A stretch of 64,000 nucleotides of DNA, from contig JAFROT010000034.1 in assembly GCA_017429525.1 (NCBI GenBank), positions 1 through 64,000 on the forward strand, given 5' to 3'. This document shows, piece after piece, positions 52,268-63,964 of this stretch (positions are counted from its first letter, which is position 1; every line of letters begins with the position of its first letter). The notes under the pieces were generated by a model that saw nothing but the letters and a program-made list of their open reading frames with translations, was not told where the DNA came from and did not search any database. Made by a program: the position numbers and the translations under genes. Source of the stretch: Bacteroidaceae bacterium (GTDB lineage: Bacteria; Bacteroidota; Bacteroidia; Bacteroidales; Bacteroidaceae).

Positions 52268-52575
52268 CAGGGCCATCGCCTGTTTACATAGCCTTTGTTG
52301 TCTTTACGCAAAGCCTTTATTGTCTCTACTATTCGCTTTTGTTGCCTATATGAAATGCCTTTGTCATCCATATCTAAGCCCTTTGTCATCTATGTGTGTA
52401 GCCCTTTTCGTCTATATATATCCGTTATTCGGTCGCGACCGAATAACGTTTTCGACTATATGTATCGGCTTCTACGACCGTTCCTTCAGGCCTTCACGAC
52501 CGTTCCTTCAGGCTGCAACGACCAGTCCTCTTGGTCGTCACGACCATTTCTTCGTTTTCATCCACCTTTATCGTT
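52268..52575. repeat. Degenerate tandem array with 22-bp period
   Basis: Fourteen consecutive 22-bp units can be laid in register, e.g. AGCCTTTGTTGTCTTTACGC at the start of unit 52290 and AGCCTTTATTGTCTCTACTA at 52312. In the 13 units from 52290 the base at position 13 is always C, and position 16 is T in most. Units 466, 488, 510 and 532 share ACGACC. The array is non-coding and contains a 26-bp palindrome (52423-52448). Confidence 0.75.
52423..52448. repeat. 26-bp perfect palindrome
   Basis: CGTTATTCGGTCG followed immediately by its exact reverse complement. It falls within the 22-bp array and could extrude as a cruciform or be a dimer binding site. Confidence 0.9.
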
Positions 52576-52635
52576 GAATATCCTGACGTGGAAAGTCCCT
52601 CGCGCACGCGCGCAGGTAAAACTTTTATAGAGCAC

Positions 52636-52741
52636 CTACACTTTAGCACTCTTCGATGCGTAGCCGTCAGATTATCAGCTGTTAAAGGTGCCTCAAAACG
52701 GTGTAGTTTGGGTGTAGTTTAGGGTGCTAAAGTGTAGTTTT
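52636..52741. repeat. Left 106-bp inverted repeat
   Basis: Contains CTACACTTTAGCAC (52636-52649) and, in the other orientation, GTGCTAAAGTGTAG (52724-52737), plus two GGTGTAGTTT units. The gene's promoter starts 43 bp further in. Confidence 0.85.
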
Positions 52742-52783
52742 GAAGAGAAATCAACTGAAATCACATGAAATCTCATCAAAAAG

Positions 52784-52814
52784 TTGCAAAACCGAAAAAA
52801 ATGTTGTATCTTTG
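52784..52814 (+). promoter_or_regulatory. Promoter of the VirE_N/VapE gene
   Basis: TTGC at 52784-52787 and TATCTTTG at 52807-52814, 23 bp between starts. The leader of about 100 nt can form an ATCGCAG/CTGCGAT hairpin (52853-52870). Confidence 0.65.
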
Positions 52815-52920
52815 CAACGTTAAAACAGCCCCCTAATCGGAGGCGTTGAGACAATCGCAGAGCGCTGCGATTCCTTGAATCATGCCATCGATTATTTACT
52901 CATTTTTAAACACTTGTTTT

Positions 52921-55128
52921 ATGGTAAAAATTCAACAATCAAAAAACACACCACTGAAAAGCCGCACCTGGAAAGCACCAACAACGGCAAACATGATGTT
53001 CACGATCGAGAAGCCCTATGGCGCCAACCGCACTTCGCTGCGCGGTATTACGCTCGACGACTTCTTCGCTCTGTTGCACGACGGCCCGCATCGCGAGGCA
53101 GTCGAGACGCTACGCAGCGAGCTGCCCACCTCGCGTGGCCTCACCAGCGAGCACCCCGAGATTTGGCGCGTCGGGCGCATCATCCCCTCGTGCTTCGTGC
53201 GCAACCAGCAAGGCAAGCGTTCGGCACGCATCTTCAACGGCGTCGTCCTGCTCGACATCCAGGACGTCTATTCGCCCGAGGAGGTGGCACGTCTCAAGCA
53301 AGCAGCCTCCTCGCTGCCCACCACCCTCGCCGCCTTCGTCGGTTCCAGCGGCATGAGCCTCAAGGTGCTTGTGCGCTACTGGTCAGCTGATGGAGTGCTG
53401 TCGCGCGAGTGGAGCGAGGTCGAGGCCTTACACGCCGCCGCCTATGAGCAGGCACGCCGTCTCTATGCCGCCGTCCTGGAGCGTACGATTAAAGAACCCG
53501 CGAAGGTGTCGATGTTCAACAGCTTCCGAATGACCATCGACCCCAATCCCTACTGGGCTCCCGGGGCTGTGCCCCTGAAGGTGGTGGCGGGCGGACCTGC
53601 ACGCCCCACCCCTGTCGAGCCCTCGCAGGTCCCTCCTACCGACAGCCGCCACTATCGCTACTACAGCCAGCGCTTTGACAAAGCCTACTCCGAGGTGCTG
53701 CAGCGATTCCGTCAGGAAGGGCGTGACGCCTCCATCGAGGCCGATGCCTTCATGCAAGCCGTCACACAGCGATGCTTCGAACTGCAGCTGCCCTTGGCCG
53801 AGACACGTATGCGCATCGTCCGTGGCGAACCCGAGGAACGTGCGCGCGAGTGGACCTACTATGTCAACGACTATTACGCCCGTCACGCCTCAACGGATGC
53901 TGACGATGCCGACGACCCCGTTGGCGCACGCGCCATGGTGCGCATGATCAGTTCGTCCTACGAGCTCTTCCGCAACCCCATCGACGGTGCCACCTACTTC
54001 AGGCCCCGCACCACCACAGGCCGTTGGCAGCTCCTCGACAAGAGCGCCCAGGCCTCCATTGAGTTCGAGGTCCTGGAGGCCGGCCTGGTCAAGTCCGTTC
54101 GCCTCGTGCGTACCTATCTGCAGAGCGGACACATCCCTATGCGCAACCCCTTGAGCGAGTTCCTCGGCAGCGTGCGCGGGCAGTGGGATGGGCAAGACCG
54201 CATCACTCAGCTCGCACGTTGCGTCGCTACGGGCAATCCCCTCTGGGAGCGTGCCTTCTACATCTGGTTCCTCGCGATGGTGCAGCAGTGGCTGGGCCTC
54301 CACCCCGAGCACGGCAATGCCGTAGCCCCTCTCCTCTGCGGAGCGCAGGGCACGGGCAAGAGCACCTTCTGTCGCGCACTCCTCCCCGACATGCTTCGCT
54401 GGGGCTACCTCGACCATATCGACCTCACGCGCACCACGCAGCTCATGCGTTTCATGTCGCAGACGTTGCTCATCAATATCGATGAGTTCGACCAGTACCG
54501 AGGCAATGCCCAGCGCGGGCCGCTCAAGAATCTCTTCCAGCAAGCGGACATTCGCACGACGCGTCCTTGGGGACAACACCTCGAGGTGCGGCCTCGCCTG
54601 GCCTCGTTCATCGCCACCTGCAACCCTACCGAAGTGCTCTTCGACGAGACCGGCACGCGTCGCTTCATCTGCGTGCGTGTCGACGCCCCTATCGTCTTGC
54701 CTGCTTACATCGACTACGAGCAACTCTACGCCCAGGCTGTCGATCAGATCTACGACCGCCGCAACAGCCCCGGCAGCTATGCCGACGACGACCCTACGGG
54801 CCGATGCTACTTCACCGTCGAAGAGCAAGACGACATCGAGCGCAACAACAGCCATTTCCGCATCTACAGCTATGCCATCGAGCGATTCCGCGATGCTTTC
54901 GAACCGCAGGCCGACCAACGGCGCCGTGGGGCCGACACCGTGGAGCTGTCGTTTGCCGGCATCATCGACTACATCGACCGCCACTCCCAAAACCGCCTCT
55001 CGCGTGAGGAACGACAGCAGTTGCGCGCTCACATCACGCGACTCGTCAACGAGGGACAGCTCGCTCGCCGACGCTCCAACAAAGGTGTTGTCTACCATCT
55101 TGCGCGCCGTTCTTTGCCCGTCATTTGA
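52921..55128 (+). CDS. VirE_N (BT4734-like) and VapE-type primase-helicase
   Basis: 735 residues from the ATG at 52921. An ATG at 52882 is possible. The N-terminal third (about 35-220) is the BT4734-like VirE_N domain: VLLDIQDVYSPEEVARLKQ, FVGSSGMSLKVLVRY, FNSFRMTIDPNPYW, related to primase folds. The C-terminal half is the VapE-like P-loop domain: LLCGAQGTGKSTFCRALL (Walker A), LLINIDEFDQYR (Walker B) and SFIATCNPTEVLFDETGTRRF (sensor-like). The end looks like a winged-helix tail. Such proteins serve replication of phage satellites, plasmids and integrated elements. Here it is alone within two inverted repeats, next to an HU-HIG gene. Confidence 0.9.
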   Translation: MVKIQQSKNTPLKSRTWKAPTTANMMFTIEKPYGANRTSLRGITLDDFFALLHDGPHREAVETLRSELPTSRGLTSEHPEIWRVGRIIPSCFVRNQQGKRSARIFNGVVLLDIQDVYSPEEVARLKQAASSLPTTLAAFVGSSGMSLKVLVRYWSADGVLSREWSEVEALHAAAYEQARRLYAAVLERTIKEPAKVSMFNSFRMTIDPNPYWAPGAVPLKVVAGGPARPTPVEPSQVPPTDSRHYRYYSQRFDKAYSEVLQRFRQEGRDASIEADAFMQAVTQRCFELQLPLAETRMRIVRGEPEERAREWTYYVNDYYARHASTDADDADDPVGARAMVRMISSSYELFRNPIDGATYFRPRTTTGRWQLLDKSAQASIEFEVLEAGLVKSVRLVRTYLQSGHIPMRNPLSEFLGSVRGQWDGQDRITQLARCVATGNPLWERAFYIWFLAMVQQWLGLHPEHGNAVAPLLCGAQGTGKSTFCRALLPDMLRWGYLDHIDLTRTTQLMRFMSQTLLINIDEFDQYRGNAQRGPLKNLFQQADIRTTRPWGQHLEVRPRLASFIATCNPTEVLFDETGTRRFICVRVDAPIVLPAYIDYEQLYAQAVDQIYDRRNSPGSYADDDPTGRCYFTVEEQDDIERNNSHFRIYSYAIERFRDAFEPQADQRRRGADTVELSFAGIIDYIDRHSQNRLSREERQQLRAHITRLVNEGQLARRRSNKGVVYHLARRSLPVI

Positions 55129-55185
55129 ACGACTTTTGCTCATAACAATAGCATTTTGACACCAAAAATCAACAGTTTTCACCCT

Positions 55186-55291
55186 AAAACTACACTTTAG
55201 CACCCTAAACTACACCCAAACTACACCGCTTTTGCGATGCCTAAGCATTTGAGAACCATAGTGATGAATGAAAAAGAGTGCTAAAGTGTAG
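55186..55291. repeat. Right 106-bp inverted repeat
   Basis: Mirror copy of the left repeat. CTACACTTTAGCAC at 55190-55203 and GTGCTAAAGTGTAG at 55278-55291. It ends 29 bp before the HU-HIG start codon, so it could also regulate that gene. Confidence 0.85.
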
Positions 55292-56014: not shown

Positions 56015-56057
56015 TGCCCAGTTAACAGAGATCTTTGACATTTTAGCTATTATGGAA

Positions 56058-58333
56058 GAAAGATATTGCTTGAAATTCTTCATCTTTGAACCATCATAAA
56101 CACCATAAGTGAGCATATAGCCCTTCACAGCCTTGTTGTGAATTGCTTGAAATTCTTCATCTTTGAACCATCATAAACACCTCTATCGTCCCTTATACCA
56201 ACAAGCAGGGCGTTGTGAATTGCTTGAAATTCTTCATCTTTGAACCATCATAAACACCTCCTATTTGAATTGCCGAGATGCGGAGCACGTTGTGAATTGC
56301 TTGAAATTCTTCATCTTTGAACCATCATAAACACCCCTTTGCCCTCGAGAACCCGACAGCCCGACGTTGTGAATTGCTTGAAATTCTTCATCTTTGAACC
56401 ATCATAAACACCGCGATTGTGCAGAGTATGATGAACTCATTGGTTGTGAATTGCTTGAAATTCTTCATCTTTGAACCATCATAAACACCTCACCAGTCGG
56501 CTGCTATTGTTGGTGAAGTGTTGTGAATTGCTTGAAATTCTTCATCTTTGAACCATCATAAACACCGCAGTCGGTGATGCGCTTCGCCACCTGTAGGTTG
56601 TGAATTGCTTGAAATTCTTCATCTTTGAACCATCATAAACACCTAACGACATAATGATTACGAAGATGAAGAAGTTGTGAATTGCTTGAAATTCTTCATC
56701 TTTGAACCATCATAAACACCTTGACGCCTAACTTGCCGCCGAGCTGGTCCGTTGTGAATTGCTTGAAATTCTTCATCTTTGAACCATCATAAACACCAAC
56801 GTCGGCTCTTCATTCAGGTGCTTGGTCGTTGTGAATTGCTTGAAATTCTTCATCTTTGAACCATCATAAACACCGGATTGCCCATTTGAGATAATGGATG
56901 GCCCGTTGTGAATTGCTTGAAATTCTTCATCTTTGAACCATCATAAACACCCCTCAAAAAATTAAATGTTATGTTACTTAGTTGTGAATTGCTTGAAATT
57001 CTTCATCTTTGAACCATCATAAACACCGTTCGATCCCCACGAAAACGAATAAAAACTGTTGTGAATTGCTTGAAATTCTTCATCTTTGAACCATCATAAA
57101 CACCTTTCCTCGTAATGGCAACCGAAGTTGAGCATGTTGTGAATTGCTTGAAATTCTTCATCTTTGAACCATCATAAACACCGAATTACACGAATTTACA
57201 CGAATTGATAGGTTGTGAATTGCTTGAAATTCTTCATCTTTGAACCATCATAAACACCAACTCAGTCTGCATGGCTCAGCACAGGCCGGTTGTGAATTGC
57301 TTGAAATTCTTCATCTTTGAACCATCATAAACACCCGTTATCGCAACAGCGATACCGACACATTGTTGTGAATTGCTTGAAATTCTTCATCTTTGAACCA
57401 TCATAAACACCCCAGGCGTGCATCGAGACACCGGGCACAGAGTTGTGAATTGCTTGAAATTCTTCATCTTTGAACCATCATAAACACCGCCGTGCCAAGA
57501 ATGCCTACAAATGGACACGTTGTGAATTGCTTGAAATTCTTCATCTTTGAACCATCATAAACACCACGGCTACGCAGACCCTCTCCACAATGCTGTTGTG
57601 AATTGCTTGAAATTCTTCATCTTTGAACCATCATAAACACCCCCCGAACATTGCACCCAAGGCATCCGCACGTTGTGAATTGCTTGAAATTCTTCATCTT
57701 TGAACCATCATAAACACCGTTCAACCGCGTGTTCTGCAACATCGAACTGTTGTGAATTGCTTGAAATTCTTCATCTTTGAACCATCATAAACACCAAATT
57801 CCTATCTTGTGCAAATATAGCATAAGTTGTGAATTGCTTGAAATTCTTCATCTTTGAACCATCATAAACACCATGACCGCCACCGCAAACGTGGCCAGTA
57901 TTGTTGTGAATTGCTTGAAATTCTTCATCTTTGAACCATCATAAACACCAATGAGGTAGGAGTTAACAAGGGGGGTAGTGTTGTGAATTGCTTGAAATTC
58001 TTCATCTTTGAACCATCATAAACACCAGGACGCGGGAGGCAATTCGACTTACCTCGTTGTGAATTGCTTGAAATTCTTCATCTTTGAACCATCATAAACA
58101 CCCCAGTTCGGACTGAGGAATTTTACATGGATGTTGTGAATTGCTTGAAATTCTTCATCTTTGAACCATCATAAACACCCTGACCACAAACAACCCAAAC
58201 AATAACCCTGTTGTGAATTGCTTGAAATTCTTCATCTTTGAACCATCATAAACACCGCCTGCAGCGCAGAGCGCAAAGGTTTTAAAGTTGTGAATTGCTT
58301 GAAATTCTTCATCTTTGAACCATCATAAACACC
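56058..58333 (+). CRISPR. Type II-C CRISPR array, 30 repeats and 29 spacers
   Basis: Repeat of 47 bp beginning GTTGTGAATTGCTTGAAATT and ending AACCATCATAAACACC. Units start at 56058, 56135, 56212 and so on every 77 bp, with four 29-bp exceptions among 30-bp spacers (before 56981, 57365, 57595 and 58056). All repeats from 56135 onward appear identical. The first (56058-56104) differs in its first eight bases. Each repeat contains CATCTTTG at positions 24-31 and GTTG at 1-4, a promoter-like arrangement. The array lies downstream of cas2 on the opposite strand. Orientation is set by analogy to other type II-C repeats that begin GTTGT. The tracrRNA was not found in the window. Confidence 0.98.
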
Positions 58334-58404
58334 ACGATGTTGGTAAGATGGTATTAATCAAAGATTTAATGCGAAAATTAAGATTAAAAAAACTGTTTAT
58401 GATT
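58334..58404. other. AT-rich region between array and cas2
   Basis: Contains CTGTTTATGATTG at 58393-58405, which matches most of the complement of the repeat end. It could be a leader, a repeat remnant, or neither. Confidence 0.35.
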
Positions 58405-58442
58405 GATAGCGGATTTCTACCTTTGTGGTGAAATCCGCTATC
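58405..58442 (-). terminator. Hairpin after cas2
   Basis: GATAGCGGATTTC pairs with GAAATCCGCTATC around a 12-base loop, 14 bp after the cas2 stop. On the minus strand seven T residues follow about 14 bases later. Probable terminator for the cas operon. Confidence 0.6.
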
Positions 58443-58456
58443 GCAAAGATGGTTGT

Positions 58457-58804
58457 TCAGAAGAGTTCAAGTTGCTGGCCAGGTGTTGATGGTGCCGTCT
58501 CTTTCTTTCCATAAAAGAGCTTGATGTCAGCAAATTGTTTGTCAGTTATACCCAATATACCAACATTGCCATATTCGGGAAGTGCAGATTGGACACGCTT
58601 AATGTGAACGTCCATGTTCTCACGGCTGGCACAATGTCGGATGTAGATGGAGAATTGGAACATCGTGAAGCCGTCGCCCATGATGTCCTTTCGGAATTTT
58701 GCAGCAGCTTTGCGCTCTTTCTTGGTGTCGGTGGGGAGGTCAAAGAATACGAGAATCCACATTACACGGTACTGGCTGAAACGTGAAGAGTCTGAGACAA
58801 TCAT
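58457..58804 (-). CDS. cas2: CRISPR-associated endonuclease Cas2
   Basis: 115 residues, ferredoxin-like fold. MWILVFFDLPTDTKKERKAAAKFRKDIMGDGFTMFQFSIYIRHC is the family N-terminus, with the Asp after FF. The 14 residues before Met15 may or may not be translated. With Cas1 it forms the spacer-acquisition complex. It begins 4 bp after the cas1 stop. Confidence 0.95.
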   Translation of the reverse strand: MIVSDSSRFSQYRVMWILVFFDLPTDTKKERKAAAKFRKDIMGDGFTMFQFSIYIRHCASRENMDVHIKRVQSALPEYGNVGILGITDKQFADIKLFYGKKETAPSTPGQQLELF

Positions 58805-58808
58805 AACT

Positions 58809-59747
58809 TTATCCTTCCATTTGTGGATAACTCACTTTGCGTAACTCTCCGCTAAAGCACTTGTATAGTGAGGCCGTGGTCTGCGTAGCGGCTATCAGCA
58901 GAGGGCTGCGCTTGCCGTCGATGATGACGTCCAAGACGGGGATGTTCAGAAGTTCGGCCTTCAGCTCTTTGGTGAGCTCTGAATAGTCGGCATACTTGTG
59001 GATGATTTTGATGACGAGCTCATCCACATAAGGACGATAAGGTTCCATAACGTCATCTGCGAGGCAATAGGCGTTGTAGCGATTGTGGTGGTGGATTCCT
59101 AATGTTGGCAATAATCCACTTCCAACGAGTGCACGTGCGATAACGGCTCGAAGGATGGCATAACCATAGTTCAGGAGGTTGTTGGGCGGTTCGCCGTCGC
59201 GTCCGCGCACGAAGTTGGGAATCTGTGGGAAGAGGTTTCGCCAATAGTAAGCCGCGGCCCTTGCTTCGAGGTTGTCGGCATCGCCGCTGCGCACCTCATC
59301 CACCCATACTTGCATACAACGTGTCTCAGCCTCAGTATGACGACGCAGCACAACCTCCTGGTTGGCTATTTTCTGTCGGATGGTCTGCTGCCAAAGTTGT
59401 TTGCGTAAAGGCAGAGAGGCATCAAGTTGGTCGCGAAAGCGTTCATTTTGGAGCGTGTTGCCATAGAGTGGCAGCATCAATCCCGTGGGCATATTGCGGC
59501 TGTCGCAGGTGATGAGGGCTGCGTTGTTCTCCAGCAGTGCTTCCATGACTCCCGTTGTGATGGTAATGCGTTTGTTGTCGAGAACAACTACGCCAATGTC
59601 TTCAATCGGGATGGTACGCTCGTTCATACGCTTGAACTCAGGCGTCAAGGTGTCATTATTTTCCACATCTGGAATCTGAATGACTAATTGTTTGTTGCGC
59701 AGGCTAAGGTAAGCCGGATTGGAGAAGCAAAGCGTTTTCTTGATCAT
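58809..59747 (-). CDS. cas1: CRISPR-associated endonuclease Cas1, type II
   Basis: 312 residues from the ATG at 59747 (MIKKTLCFSNPAYLS). An upstream TTG would add 10 residues and overlap a hairpin, so it is rejected. The metal-binding residues are in NYGYAILRAVIARALVGSGLLPTLGIHHHN (Glu/His region) and LADDVMEPYRPYVDELV. It integrates new spacers with Cas2. Confidence 0.96.
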   Translation of the reverse strand: MIKKTLCFSNPAYLSLRNKQLVIQIPDVENNDTLTPEFKRMNERTIPIEDIGVVVLDNKRITITTGVMEALLENNAALITCDSRNMPTGLMLPLYGNTLQNERFRDQLDASLPLRKQLWQQTIRQKIANQEVVLRRHTEAETRCMQVWVDEVRSGDADNLEARAAAYYWRNLFPQIPNFVRGRDGEPPNNLLNYGYAILRAVIARALVGSGLLPTLGIHHHNRYNAYCLADDVMEPYRPYVDELVIKIIHKYADYSELTKELKAELLNIPVLDVIIDGKRSPLLIAATQTTASLYKCFSGELRKVSYPQMEG

Positions 59748-59767
59748 AGCATGTTGGAAAAAGTAAA

Positions 59768-59791
59768 GAGCCTGCAAAAGTATGCAGGCTC
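59768..59791 (-). terminator. Terminator-like hairpin between cas9 and cas1
   Basis: GAGCCTGCA pairs with TGCAGGCTC around a six-base loop. On the minus strand it is followed by TTTACTTTTT. It lies in the 56-bp gap after the cas9 stop, so it could reduce expression of cas1-cas2. Confidence 0.6.
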
Positions 59792-59803
59792 AAAAGATTA
59801 TGG

Positions 59804-62800
59804 TTATGATTCTTTAGATGGGAGGATATTACCGAGATGATTGACGCGGACTTTAACGATTCCTTCGAGGGCTTGTAGCGAATTAATTCGTTTAAACGAT
59901 AAACCCTTGAGCTCTTTATTGTCATCCACGGTCGTTTCTAGATGATGTCTAAAGAAATAATCTCTTCCACCTTCTGTCTTTGACATCTTCTGCACCCTAT
60001 ACAAATGCTTACTAATCTCCGCCTTATTATTCGGATCGAACAAATCAATCGCTTTCGGGTCGAAACCATGTTCAATATCAGGGAAGATGAAGTATTCGTT
60101 CTGTTTCATGGAGAAAAGGAACTTCCAACCTTCAGCAGCATTGTATTCAGTGTCAACTACGGGGATACCAAGTGCCTTGCGCGTAGTTGCTTCCAAGAAT
60201 GAAACGGCATCGTCTTGTAAATTACCCTCAGCATCCCGATACACGGCAATATGATGGGTGCTGGCTGTTTGCACAAAATCTACAGGTCGTTTCTTTCCCT
60301 CGCTGTCCGTGATCACTTTCCCGAAGTGGTCTTTGGCTTCATGCAAAGAAATGGCGCTGAGAACTCCACGGATGCGGACACTCTTGATGGTGATGCCTTT
60401 TTCTTTATTCAGGTAGATGGGATTCTCGTCAAGGTTAGCGAATGCTTTCTTTGGGTCACCACCGAACTCGTCGAGGCGTGCTTGCAGAATTCGATGTACA
60501 CCCGCGTCGATGACCTTGTCCAGCTTGAGATCTGGAGAAACAGGTTTGCGGATGGGGTAGTAGTCCTCGAAATAGACGAGTTTCACGCGTAATGGTACTT
60601 GCTCGGCGTGTTGCTCGTTGAGCCAGATGGGATTCTTCTCGGGTGAATTCTTGCCCGTGAATGCTTTCTTGGGGTCGTTGCCGAATTGTGCTAAGCGGGC
60701 AATGACGGCATCGCGATACATCTTCTTGGCAATCAGCGTGGCGCGGTCTGGAGTCATTTTACCATCTACTTTTACCTTTTCCGAGATACGATGCAGCGTG
60801 TGGCCATAGATGGTTTCGTTGTGTAGTTGTCCACGGGGTGTTAGTTGGATTTTCTTATTGGTGCCACCTTTTGTCTTAAACTTGTTGACATTCTGGGTCA
60901 TCACCTTGTTCTTGGCTTTGATGGAGATGAGGATGTCTTCGAGTTGGCGCTTAGCTTCTGCCCGGAACACGTCAAGGGGCATTGGAGCGCGGAAACGCAA
61001 TTTGCCATGGCTGTCGCGATAGAGGTATTTCTGCTCAATGCCATAGATGCTGCTGCTTTTATCACTCCGCGCATTGAGGTTGTTGAGGTACTGAATGAAG
61101 GCAGGATGGGTGAAGGCAATGGTCAGTGCATCCATGGCATGGTGGCGATGGTCGTTTCGTTTGGTCCAATCTTTGATGCGTCGGATCTCACGTCCATCCT
61201 TGTCTTTATAGGTTTCAGTAAGGCCAAGACGATTATATTTGTCCCAGTTGAGCTCCTGCATGACATCTACGAGTTGCCAGTCTTCGCGCAGGCGGTCGGT
61301 GATACTGCCGATGGTGGGAATGACCTGTGGCACCATGTCCTCCAGAATCTCACGTGCTTTCTTGGCAATGTACTGCGAGTTGCGCAAGTCGCGATCGATG
61401 AAGCCGTCGGGAATGTCGGCTTCGCGCATGAGCAATTTATCGTGCTTGGCTTTGCCGATGATGCCTTGCTTGTAGAGATTGTCAATTTTCGTTTTGTACT
61501 CGGACGCTTTCTCCTCACCCCATTTGCCAAGGATGTAGTCGTAGGCGGTGGCGTTGCTCTTTTCGATATTGATGCCACGTGCTTCCAAAGTCTTATTAGA
61601 GAAGGAATCATCGAAAAGTCGAGCCTGCGGAATGATGTGCTCTATGTCGAAGTTCTTGCTGAAAAGTTGGTCGCGAGGGATATAAGTGTCAGAGTAAAGC
61701 GTTTTGAAGCCGTTGTCCTTCAGCTCCATATAAAGCTTATATCGAATGATGTCATTGCGGCTGACGTGTTGGATGCCGAACTCTGATTCAAGCTCTTCAC
61801 GATATTTCTCATTCATGAGGTTTGCCGCGTTGATGTCTGAAGTTGTTTTTTCGCGTTCCTTGGCACTCTGTTTCAAGTCGCGTGCCAACTCAATTCGGAT
61901 TTCATCTGGCTTCCCATATTCTTCAACGACAGCATTGACGACATTGATCATCTGATTGAGAATTTTTTCTACGACGGGATTGCGGAGGGCATTGCGAGGC
62001 AACAGTTCGAGGCGGTCTAAGTAGTTGCGGTTGGCGAGTTCCTCCTTGGTACGTGAGCGTTCGGAGTGGCGATAACCTGCATACTCACATGCTATGCTAT
62101 AATCATTACCTGCTTTCATGAACGGCAGAATCTTGCGCATGGCTTTGGCGCTGAGGCTTCCGTAATCCTCTTGGAACGTGACATTTGCCAGCACTTGAGC
62201 ATATTCGCGGTCGCAATGACAGAGGCTTTGCAGCTTGGCAATCAATGCATCCGTGCCAGTTTTGGAATTGTCGCCTTCGTAGGAATACAACAGATGCCAA
62301 AGTTGGTAAAGGGGCTGTTGGTCAAAGGCATGGCCCTCAAGTTCTGCATCGAAATGAAGAATGTCTGTGTTAATACCAATAGCCTTGAAGACCAATCCTG
62401 TCACTTCTTCAATCTCTATAGCCTTCAATTTCTTGATGTCGTACTCTTCGTGTCCGGAGAGTGCGATAATGCTGAAGAAGGCTTGGTAAAGTGCAGACAA
62501 AGTGCGGTTGCCCTCTACTTCCTTATAGTTGAGGTCATATTTCTTGGCTGCTTTTCCAAAGAGTATGTTAAGTACTTCGCGCTTGGATAGCTTCTCTTTA
62601 TATTGTAGTTCGCGCGCGAGCGATTCTTTCTCTTCGAGGTCGAGGAAACGTCTTTTCTCGGTGGCGGAGAAGAGGTCTTCACCTGCATCTTCGAATTCTA
62701 CTTGCAGGTTGTTGAGTACTTGCCAGACCTTAAACTCCTGAAACAGAGGTGAGGACTTGGGGCAAACCTTGAGGCCTACTGTCTTATTACGTGTCTTTCC

Positions 62801-63964
62801 ATCTTCTTGGACTTCCACCTGACGGCGCTCAAATGTGCAAATGTCCAGCATCGCCTTTTTGCTCTTGAGAGGTCGCTGATAGAAGATGATCTCATCGCGA
62901 ATTTTCTTTTTTAATTCAGGTGTCAGCTCTTTGTGGAAACGAGCCTGAGTATTCCATATCTGCTCAAATTCATCGAGATAATCCTGCCTGTAGAAAGTCG
63001 CGTTCTTCAGGCTGTAATGTGGATTGGCTTCAATTTTTTTTACGATGTATTGCCCAATAGTCTGATGATTGAAATAAAGTTCCTTGGAGCGGTCGCTGAT
63101 GGCACCGAGGTAGCCGCTATTATTGTTGATAGCCCCATTGATATCGGCAATGACAAAGGCCAATTCTTCGGGCGTGAGTTGGCGTTGCAAAGCCTCTGCA
63201 CGCCATCTATACTGCTGAAGACGGCGGTCGGTGCCTTTGTTGTCGGCTGTATAGATGCCATATTTCCCCAAGAATATCTTGGTCGTATTCGTCTTGGATT
63301 TTCCTTGTAGTTGATGATAGAAATCTTCGGTCAGGATGTCAGCATGGAATGTACGTTGGAAAGCCCAGACAGCATCAAGCTCAGTCACTAAGTCAGAGCG
63401 ATAGAAGTCGGGAATATATTTTTTGCCAGCTTGCAGGAGGTCATAGCAGTATTGACCAGGTGTGAGGCATTGGTCATGGAGCTGCTTGGCTATTTCCATG
63501 CCATCGATGAGCGTTCCGTCCTCTGTAGATTGGGCTTTACGGCTGCTCTTGTACCCTCGCTTTTTGTTTATCATCAATAAAATGCGAGCCAGTTCCTGTA
63601 AAGAAACCTCTTGCGTTGCCGCTTTGGCACGGGAATAAAGTGTAGCGAATGTGGTTCGGGGACCATTCTCGGTAAGTATGGTTTCATCTTGGATGATTTT
63701 AGCAGCTTTCAGAGAAGTTATTAGGTTATCTCTGCGTTGTTTGAAGCGTTGCAGGTTGCGCCGCATACTACGTTTTAGCGTACGGTCAGCATTAGTCGTT
63801 ATACTTTTGCCTTTCTCGAAATTTGTCTGCTCGTCAACGGTTAGCGGAACTACTCTAACACCTAAGCGTGTAATAGAAGATAGCTCGTTGTTATTCTCTG
63901 CTTCGTTGACTAATGCCCAACCGATGCTGGTTGTTCCTAAATCTAATCCTAATATACGTTTCAT
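59804..63964 (-). CDS. cas9: CRISPR-associated endonuclease Cas9, type II-C
   Basis: 1386 residues. RuvC-I: ILGLDLGTTSIGWALV with catalytic Asp8. Arg-rich bridge helix: RTLKRSMRRNLQRFKQRRDN at about 61-80. RuvC-II: DEIRIELARDLK. HNH: FDIEHIIPQARLFDDSFSN with His776. RuvC-III: RNDHRHHAMDALTIAF with Asp945. The C-terminal region (from about 1000) contains the PAM-interacting part. The operon order cas9-cas1-cas2 without csn2 or cas4 indicates type II-C. Nothing looks broken. The PAM cannot be predicted from sequence alone here. Confidence 0.98.
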   Translation of the reverse strand: MKRILGLDLGTTSIGWALVNEAENNNELSSITRLGVRVVPLTVDEQTNFEKGKSITTNADRTLKRSMRRNLQRFKQRRDNLITSLKAAKIIQDETILTENGPRTTFATLYSRAKAATQEVSLQELARILLMINKKRGYKSSRKAQSTEDGTLIDGMEIAKQLHDQCLTPGQYCYDLLQAGKKYIPDFYRSDLVTELDAVWAFQRTFHADILTEDFYHQLQGKSKTNTTKIFLGKYGIYTADNKGTDRRLQQYRWRAEALQRQLTPEELAFVIADINGAINNNSGYLGAISDRSKELYFNHQTIGQYIVKKIEANPHYSLKNATFYRQDYLDEFEQIWNTQARFHKELTPELKKKIRDEIIFYQRPLKSKKAMLDICTFERRQVEVQEDGKTRNKTVGLKVCPKSSPLFQEFKVWQVLNNLQVEFEDAGEDLFSATEKRRFLDLEEKESLARELQYKEKLSKREVLNILFGKAAKKYDLNYKEVEGNRTLSALYQAFFSIIALSGHEEYDIKKLKAIEIEEVTGLVFKAIGINTDILHFDAELEGHAFDQQPLYQLWHLLYSYEGDNSKTGTDALIAKLQSLCHCDREYAQVLANVTFQEDYGSLSAKAMRKILPFMKAGNDYSIACEYAGYRHSERSRTKEELANRNYLDRLELLPRNALRNPVVEKILNQMINVVNAVVEEYGKPDEIRIELARDLKQSAKEREKTTSDINAANLMNEKYREELESEFGIQHVSRNDIIRYKLYMELKDNGFKTLYSDTYIPRDQLFSKNFDIEHIIPQARLFDDSFSNKTLEARGINIEKSNATAYDYILGKWGEEKASEYKTKIDNLYKQGIIGKAKHDKLLMREADIPDGFIDRDLRNSQYIAKKAREILEDMVPQVIPTIGSITDRLREDWQLVDVMQELNWDKYNRLGLTETYKDKDGREIRRIKDWTKRNDHRHHAMDALTIAFTHPAFIQYLNNLNARSDKSSSIYGIEQKYLYRDSHGKLRFRAPMPLDVFRAEAKRQLEDILISIKAKNKVMTQNVNKFKTKGGTNKKIQLTPRGQLHNETIYGHTLHRISEKVKVDGKMTPDRATLIAKKMYRDAVIARLAQFGNDPKKAFTGKNSPEKNPIWLNEQHAEQVPLRVKLVYFEDYYPIRKPVSPDLKLDKVIDAGVHRILQARLDEFGGDPKKAFANLDENPIYLNKEKGITIKSVRIRGVLSAISLHEAKDHFGKVITDSEGKKRPVDFVQTASTHHIAVYRDAEGNLQDDAVSFLEATTRKALGIPVVDTEYNAAEGWKFLFSMKQNEYFIFPDIEHGFDPKAIDLFDPNNKAEISKHLYRVQKMSKTEGGRDYFFRHHLETTVDDNKELKGLSFKRINSLQALEGIVKVRVNHLGNILPSKES

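Follow-up and report, generated by a model that had tools for sequence, protein, structure and literature searches.

Inward-facing iteron-type modules around a VapE-like primase-helicase gene point to an undescribed kind of gene-linked dispersed repeat system in Bacteroidales

The vapE unit of the window

The window, that is, the whole stretch of 64,000 nucleotides of a Bacteroidaceae genome that was analysed, contains a gene for a VapE-like primase-helicase enclosed by two 106-bp arms, inverted copies of each other (Table 1). The original prediction of symmetrical inverted repeats, with 18 bp outside, 43 bp inside and spacers of 45 bp on each side, proves exact: the outer 18 bp are 100% complementary, the inner 43 bp are identical, and the inverted-repeat (IR) alignment scores 94, whereas none of 50 shuffles exceeds 24. 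In control genes (n = 85) this score is at most 28 in 84 cases, the remaining one reaching 53. That a single VirE_N/VapE gene lies within the repeats is confirmed by profile searches, where the protein matches BT4734-like_N (PF08800) and VapE-like (PF05272, E 1.5e-25). Each arm is also inverted internally, and makes one copy of a module that is dispersed in the genome. From the outside towards vapE, this module consists of two inverted iterons, an AT-rich spacer and three to four direct iterons, the latter spaced about one helical turn; in the window the iterons are GTGTAG/GTGCTA. No transposase was seen between the arms, either in the window or in the L023 pair (Table 1).

Table 1. Coordinates of the unit in the window and of inward pair L023 in the same genome
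Feature	Position	Strand	Remarks
26-bp perfect palindrome CGTTATTCGGTCGCGACCGAATAACG	52423..52448	.	Outer side of left module
CG-rich tract	52599..52614	.	Beyond left module
Left module	52636..52741	+	Outer inverted iterons, 45-bp spacer, direct iterons directed at vapE
Candidate Bacteroidota-type vapE promoter TATCTTTG	52783..52814	+	Between left module and gene; read from sequence
VapE-like primase-helicase gene, 748 aa	52882..55128	+	PF08800 + PF05272; a later ATG may be the true start
Right module	55186..55291	-	Inverted copy of left module; direct iterons directed at vapE
HU-HIG gene, 212 aa	55321..55959	+	PF18291; beyond right module
L023 inward module pair	L023:5809-8507		ATPase stop codon inside right module

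The promoter in the table is a candidate only, assigned to the Bacteroidota type by its consensus. Degenerate 22-bp tandem units flank the palindrome (52287-52330 and 52467-52510). Directly past HU-HIG (56045-63964), a CRISPR-type repeat of 47 bp recurs at least 25 times, and beyond it come minus-strand ORFs that are presumably cas2, cas1 and a large cas9. The idea of a structured RNA was dropped, as Rfam gave nothing at gathering score in 4 loci.

Related units and their arms

Relatives of the gene were collected by a profile search of 139 genomes of the genus. With a cut-off of our own choosing (E ≤ 1e-150), this gave 15 close vapE genes in 12 of the 139 genomes. Five members, those known at the time, are included in a tree of 38 proteins, where they group with full support; the other ten are outside this tree. 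In a first IR test (43 loci, 500-bp flanks) the window, L084, L085, L087, L108 and L112 clearly stand out. The flank windows were widened after this test had missed an inverted repeat, the control genes being scored with the same widened windows, and a score of at least 35 is then reached in 13 of 15 units versus 1 of 85 control genes. Two of the 13 are weak – L188 (35, at a contig edge) and L190 (the best stretch being a simple repeat) – and their scores derive from AT-rich or simple-repeat stretches. Neither L086, where the iterons are degenerate, nor L186, where the right arm is apparently lost, has a scored IR.

The iterons differ from genome to genome: GGTGTAAT in G042, GGTGACGA in G018, AGTGCAAA in G432, GGTGTATC in G357 and ATGTGAAG in contig G359:C131. 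When arms are compared across units, an arm finds its best match in its own partner in 13 of the 15 rows, with a median of 56 on the diagonal and a mean of 23 off it. The arms of one unit thus change together, while the type usually differs between units; the closest pairs of units, such as L189 and L190, have a common module type. Similarity of arms follows identity of proteins (rho 0.36, 0/2000 permutations), with the highest correlation for the C-terminus (0.43, three segments tried). As far as sequences can tell, the comparison shows a layout that is kept while the module changes from unit to unit. In a sister branch of VapE proteins, 7 of 11 scorable loci also reach 35 (L089, L102, L105, L107, L108, L116 and L117), with arms that display, by eye, the same layout and other iterons. 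In six of these seven, L108 being the one left aside, a like small ORF stands between the left module and vapE; that of L102, the one tested, is DUF6078 (PF19555). In a third branch none of 11 scorable loci reaches 35. These counts leave out L120 (35, direct 41) and L178 (36), and six vapE loci with a short flank were unscored in the widened test, among them L112, which had 50 in the first.

A gene for an HU-HIG protein, an HU/IHF relative by profile, follows 12 of the 15 vapE genes on the same strand, 103-296 bp downstream (the window, L084-L087, L182-L185 and L188-L190; the profile was built from five of these 12, and the ORF of L182 is short). It was not found beside L181, L186 and L187, a remnant of its start being readable at L186. 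Among 42 other vapE-like loci none has HU-HIG in that position and strand, and five have a match elsewhere or reversed. Within the stretches fetched, the 15 units have no other neighbour in common, and therefore stand in different chromosomal surroundings. This, with the many unrelated loci that carry the repeats (see below), speaks for the part of the original prediction which saw here a possible cassette moved in trans. Against it, HU-HIG occurs with vapE although – as in the window – it sits beyond the right arm and not between the arms.

The protein itself combines a PrimPol-type N-terminal domain with a VapE helicase. The profile of the 15 members matches PDB entry 7pds ('Similar to D. 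nodosus vapE') over the helicase part (E 7.9e-11), and all 15 members keep the Walker A/B and arginine residues unchanged. The primase metal motif, defined as hhhDhD/E (PMC5862659), is incomplete in the five members examined, with motif I reading D-x-Q in four and K-x-E in one, so that the ability to prime may be lost. Our reading of the alignments suggests a winged-helix-like segment at the C-terminus of both VapE and HU-HIG.

The arrangement also appears in a named species. Six BT4734-family places of Bacteroides or Parabacteroides were tested, out of 31 records of the plasmid collection with a match. Bacteroides finegoldii (NZ_OY725909.1) has the layout, with an IR score of 72 versus at most 29 in shuffles, and its module has iterons of its own, CTGACAATA. 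The scores of the five other records are not above shuffles, L248 equalling them; for L249, an unannotated record, the ORF ends were estimated. Among 72,556 records searched, the B. finegoldii module is found at 6 places in 4 records, all from strain TSDC17.2-1.1, and the three places outside the record of the unit lie between annotated genes. Plasmid or phage homologues were considered as a source and set aside, the relatives in 92 phage and 31 plasmid records being all below 60% identity; viral contigs gave at most 32% identity, in 23 loci.

Dispersed modules and inward pairs

In the genome of the window (G000; a 3.3-Mb assembly, 86% complete) the 14-mer GTGCTAAAGTGTAG has 40 exact sites at 24 places, while the reversed string used as a control has 0. 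Inverted pairs, at a distance of 88 bp or, in two cases, 76 bp, make up 16 of these places; the other 8 are single exact sites. Two of the 24 are the arms of the window and 22 are elsewhere. The finding that the original prediction had named as fatal to itself, repeats occurring always at BT4734/HU loci, is therefore not what is observed, since copies stand at unrelated loci. Convergent genes flank 10 of 20 dispersed copies, versus 4 of 33 other gaps of at least 150 bp, and divergent genes 2 of 20; these counts rest on crude ORF calls, with two contig-edge copies dropped and the 33 obtained by subtraction from 53 gaps. The change in GC skew at single copies is positive in 14 of 17; it was left unused because the copies are often between convergent genes, a situation giving such a change without an origin. 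In L022, L023 and L027, small genes near modules begin alike (MEKKxYSKPxxxAExFxPQE) and resemble a peptide precursor family.

The exact motif is missing from 79 of 80 relatives, and the only one to have it, G041, does so on a single contig; the paired motif occurs likewise in one contig of the genome_contigs collection (RUG14845 assembly), with the same coordinates as in G041. This contig (L035, G041:C203, CADCOX010000203.1), the sole one from a relative with the exact module, has a gene order common with L019, and could therefore belong to the species of the window and have been binned wrongly. A search with a 155-bp consensus found matches in 5 of 61 genomes of the genus, three of them weak or partial; one partial match, in G042, stands immediately ahead of the gene for the closest homologue of this VapE. 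The left arm of the window had no match in the plasmid collection.

Constraint is uneven along the module. In 19 aligned copies of the window family, the left iteron block has 1.73 bits per column versus 0.85 for the spacer (this leaves out the right motif, with which the copies were retrieved; the CTACAC that opens the left block had itself served as a filter). The spacer is AT-rich, 68% in the 19 dispersed copies versus 46% for the loci, the arms of the window having 55% and 61%. With at most one mismatch, TGATWATCA is present in 26 of 52 modules, against 1.2 expected from shuffling (G000 15/23, G018 5/12, G042 2/5, G432 0/7, B. finegoldii 4/5); by eye this core looks like an IHF site, a likeness that we do not put forward as a claim. 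A loosely defined CG-rich pattern is found at most 60 bp outside the module in 20 of 23 cases in G000 and 6 of 12 in G018, and is rare or missing elsewhere (G042 0/5, G432 1/7, B. finegoldii 0/5). An alternating CG-rich tract (e.g. CGCGCGCACGCGCAC) is seen tens of bases beyond the outer iterons in L087, L108, L182, L183 and L187.

Other genomes have dispersed copies of their own type. G042 has 9 motif sites, 5 of them outside the unit, with 0 in five other genomes; G018 has 17, 15 of them outside, with 1 in three other genomes. A degenerate pattern run over 11 genomes (27 true hits versus 3 in reversed controls) gave 11 sites of its own motif in G432, 9 outside the unit, and 2 in G357, both in its own arms and none elsewhere. 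Dispersed copies match best the arms of their own genome in G000 (22/22), G018 (10/10), G042 (3/3) and G432 (5/6). As copies were retrieved with the units' own motifs this likeness is partly built in, the control being that each motif is nearly absent from the other genomes searched. In G359, 0 of 5 tested modules (of 9 sites) match either of its two units, which leaves modules without a matching unit in this 84%-complete assembly, and contig G018:C124 carries a module of the G432-like type. For G086, the pattern with which its dispersed copies were sought did not fit the arms of its own unit.

Where two modules lie at most 3 kb apart they face inward, in 4 of 4 vapE units and 7 of 7 other pairs (loci scanned in four genomes). 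Six of these seven are doublets that are nearly empty, only 52-135 bp separating their modules. The seventh, in the genome of the window (L023; Table 1), has an AAA_14/DUF4143 ATPase where vapE would be, together with a gene for a small peptide; this ATPase has a match to TniB that is sub-threshold only. Three doublets of G018, on three contigs, are about 80% identical over 419-488 bp, and for this reason are not independent evidence on orientation. Their homology breaks off exactly where the right module ends outwards; at the opposite end it stops a little short of a 26-bp palindrome. This palindrome is also present upstream of the vapE unit of G018 and in 6 of the 7 dispersed loci of that genome. 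Its counterpart in the genome of the window, CGTTATTCGGTCGCGACCGAATAACG, accompanies the module in 13 of 20 other loci (strict pattern). As a raw count, 10 of 15 units have an even palindrome of at least 20 bp on the upstream side, at a distance of up to 1.2 kb, and none has one downstream. Inward pairs that are nearly empty or carry another cargo again speak for a cassette moved in trans, as the original prediction had it; against this, neither an empty site nor a target duplication was found among the loci examined, the G018 doublets having been inspected by eye for the latter.

An origin-like reading and its rivals

What is at hand is a real, conserved, gene-linked dispersed repeat system. 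For each known kind considered, a defining feature that was tested is missing here, and no description of such a system was found in the open-access literature, subscription papers and preprints being outside the scope of that search; the sequences point to a kind that is still undescribed. The origin of phage-inducible chromosomal islands (PICI) suggests what the modules may be: it is described (PMC6092414, Fig. 2 legend) as an AT-rich region with a set of iterons on either side, and it lies beside the rep gene. The layout of the module is the same, and VapE is therefore taken as an initiator-helicase that would be guided to the modules. In our preferred reading, to which we give a probability of about 0.6, the arms would be two inward copies of a compound, iteron-type recognition module, proper to the VapE-like protein encoded between them and to its partner HU-HIG, origin-like and copied in trans.

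VapE, probably via its C-terminal winged-helix-like region, would read the iterons and the spacer, as HU-HIG, with its HU/IHF body and winged-helix-like end, is also likely to do. The two may bind the modules as an initiator complex, HU-HIG being the putative bending partner. We are less sure that this complex would open the AT-rich spacer and load the VapE helicase, as at the origin of a phage satellite, and likewise that copying begun at the modules would duplicate them, together with the DNA between inward pairs, for reinsertion elsewhere. Near-empty doublets, cargo-bearing pairs and single copies, all depending on one vapE in trans, would be the outcome. A broader view, tentative and somewhat short of even odds, is that of a transposase-free mobile DNA of the chromosome that would spread by initiation of replication, with satellite-type origins recognized in trans by a co-evolving primase-helicase and its HU-type partner; it would occur in Bacteroides as well as in several species of a single Bacteroidales genus. 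The observations connect the BT4734-like/VapE family, accompanied by HU-HIG or DUF6078, with a genome-wide repeat family and with a DNA target that can be seen in the sequence, and B. finegoldii is a named species with the arrangement. Should the modules work as origins, a single gene would control tens of ectopic initiation sites on one chromosome; should they move, DNA would be spread without a transposase.

There are differences from the PICI and the SaPI, even though these and the present units have in common a VapE-type helicase and, next to its gene, an AT-rich region between two iteron sets, known here from the layout of the sequence. Here two inverted origin-like modules surround the gene and many more are on the chromosome, HU-HIG is a partner, and the 15 units have in common, within the stretches fetched, no integrase, repressor, interference or packaging gene.

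It could also be that the modules are fixed sites, regulatory or organizing the chromosome, with VapE, HU-HIG or both as regulator or nucleoid protein and the copies as a regulon or as anchors, without replication or movement. This we find unlikely. Operators controlling the two genes had been the second possibility of the original prediction, and indeed the right module immediately precedes HU-HIG, the left one lies ahead of the candidate promoter of vapE, the iterons are conserved while the spacers drift, and the HU/IHF kinship of HU-HIG would suit a nucleoid protein. Yet, in all four units scanned, the two modules are oriented oppositely, not alike, with respect to the two genes, dispersed copies lie more often between convergent than between divergent genes, and near-empty doublets are copied as units, all of which weakens the operator reading.

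Improbable, in our opinion, is a device for defence against phages or satellites, in which decoy origins with VapE and HU-HIG would trap or misdirect the replication proteins of invaders sharing the iterons: the modules do resemble satellite origins, fast turnover of iterons would fit a conflict, and 2 of 15 units are beside an array of one CRISPR repeat, that of the window, but with PADLOC a CRISPR-associated PrimPol model is all that VapE matches and HU-HIG has no match, the right arm of B. finegoldii is unmatched in 50,697 phage records, and adjacency to CRISPR is not general in the stretches examined, where the 13 other units were scanned for spaced repeats only. A CRISPR link as a general feature was dropped on the same count of 2/15. 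The class B of CRISPR-associated Prim-Pol, as PMC8211822 presents it, likewise has a VirE_N primase domain, is found in Bacteroidetes and may be near CRISPR; here the domain is fused to a VapE helicase. In G018:C38, the unit is near an array with a repeat almost identical to that of the window.

Finally, we give little credit to an ordinary MITE or REP family with its transposase elsewhere, vapE merely bearing its arms. Short intergenic inverted modules in tens of copies, with doublets and a palindrome on one side, do recall REPINs or BrickBuilt. But the module type changes along with the vapE unit, the gene enclosed is that of a primase-helicase and not that of an IS element, and a Y1 (REP-type) transposase is missing from G018 despite its dispersed copies. 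The search for PF01797 in 4 genomes found none in G018, one each at about the cut-off in G000 and G042, and a strong one in G086, so that REP/RAYT as a driver is unsupported. The REPIN-RAYT system, in the account of PMC3116915, also has intergenic, species-specific inverted doublets and singlets tied to one cognate gene; unlike it, the cognate gene here codes for a primase-helicase instead of a tyrosine transposase, and the module is of about 106 bp with iterons instead of a REP hairpin. The BrickBuilt MITE of Porphyromonas gingivalis (PMC4596501) is again from Bacteroidota, intergenic, in about 20 copies and with inverted ends; a linked vapE is not mentioned in its abstract. BrickBuilt has tandem 23-nt units, and here degenerate 22-bp units are near the palindrome; similar-looking units of this type also stand beside some of the dispersed copies.
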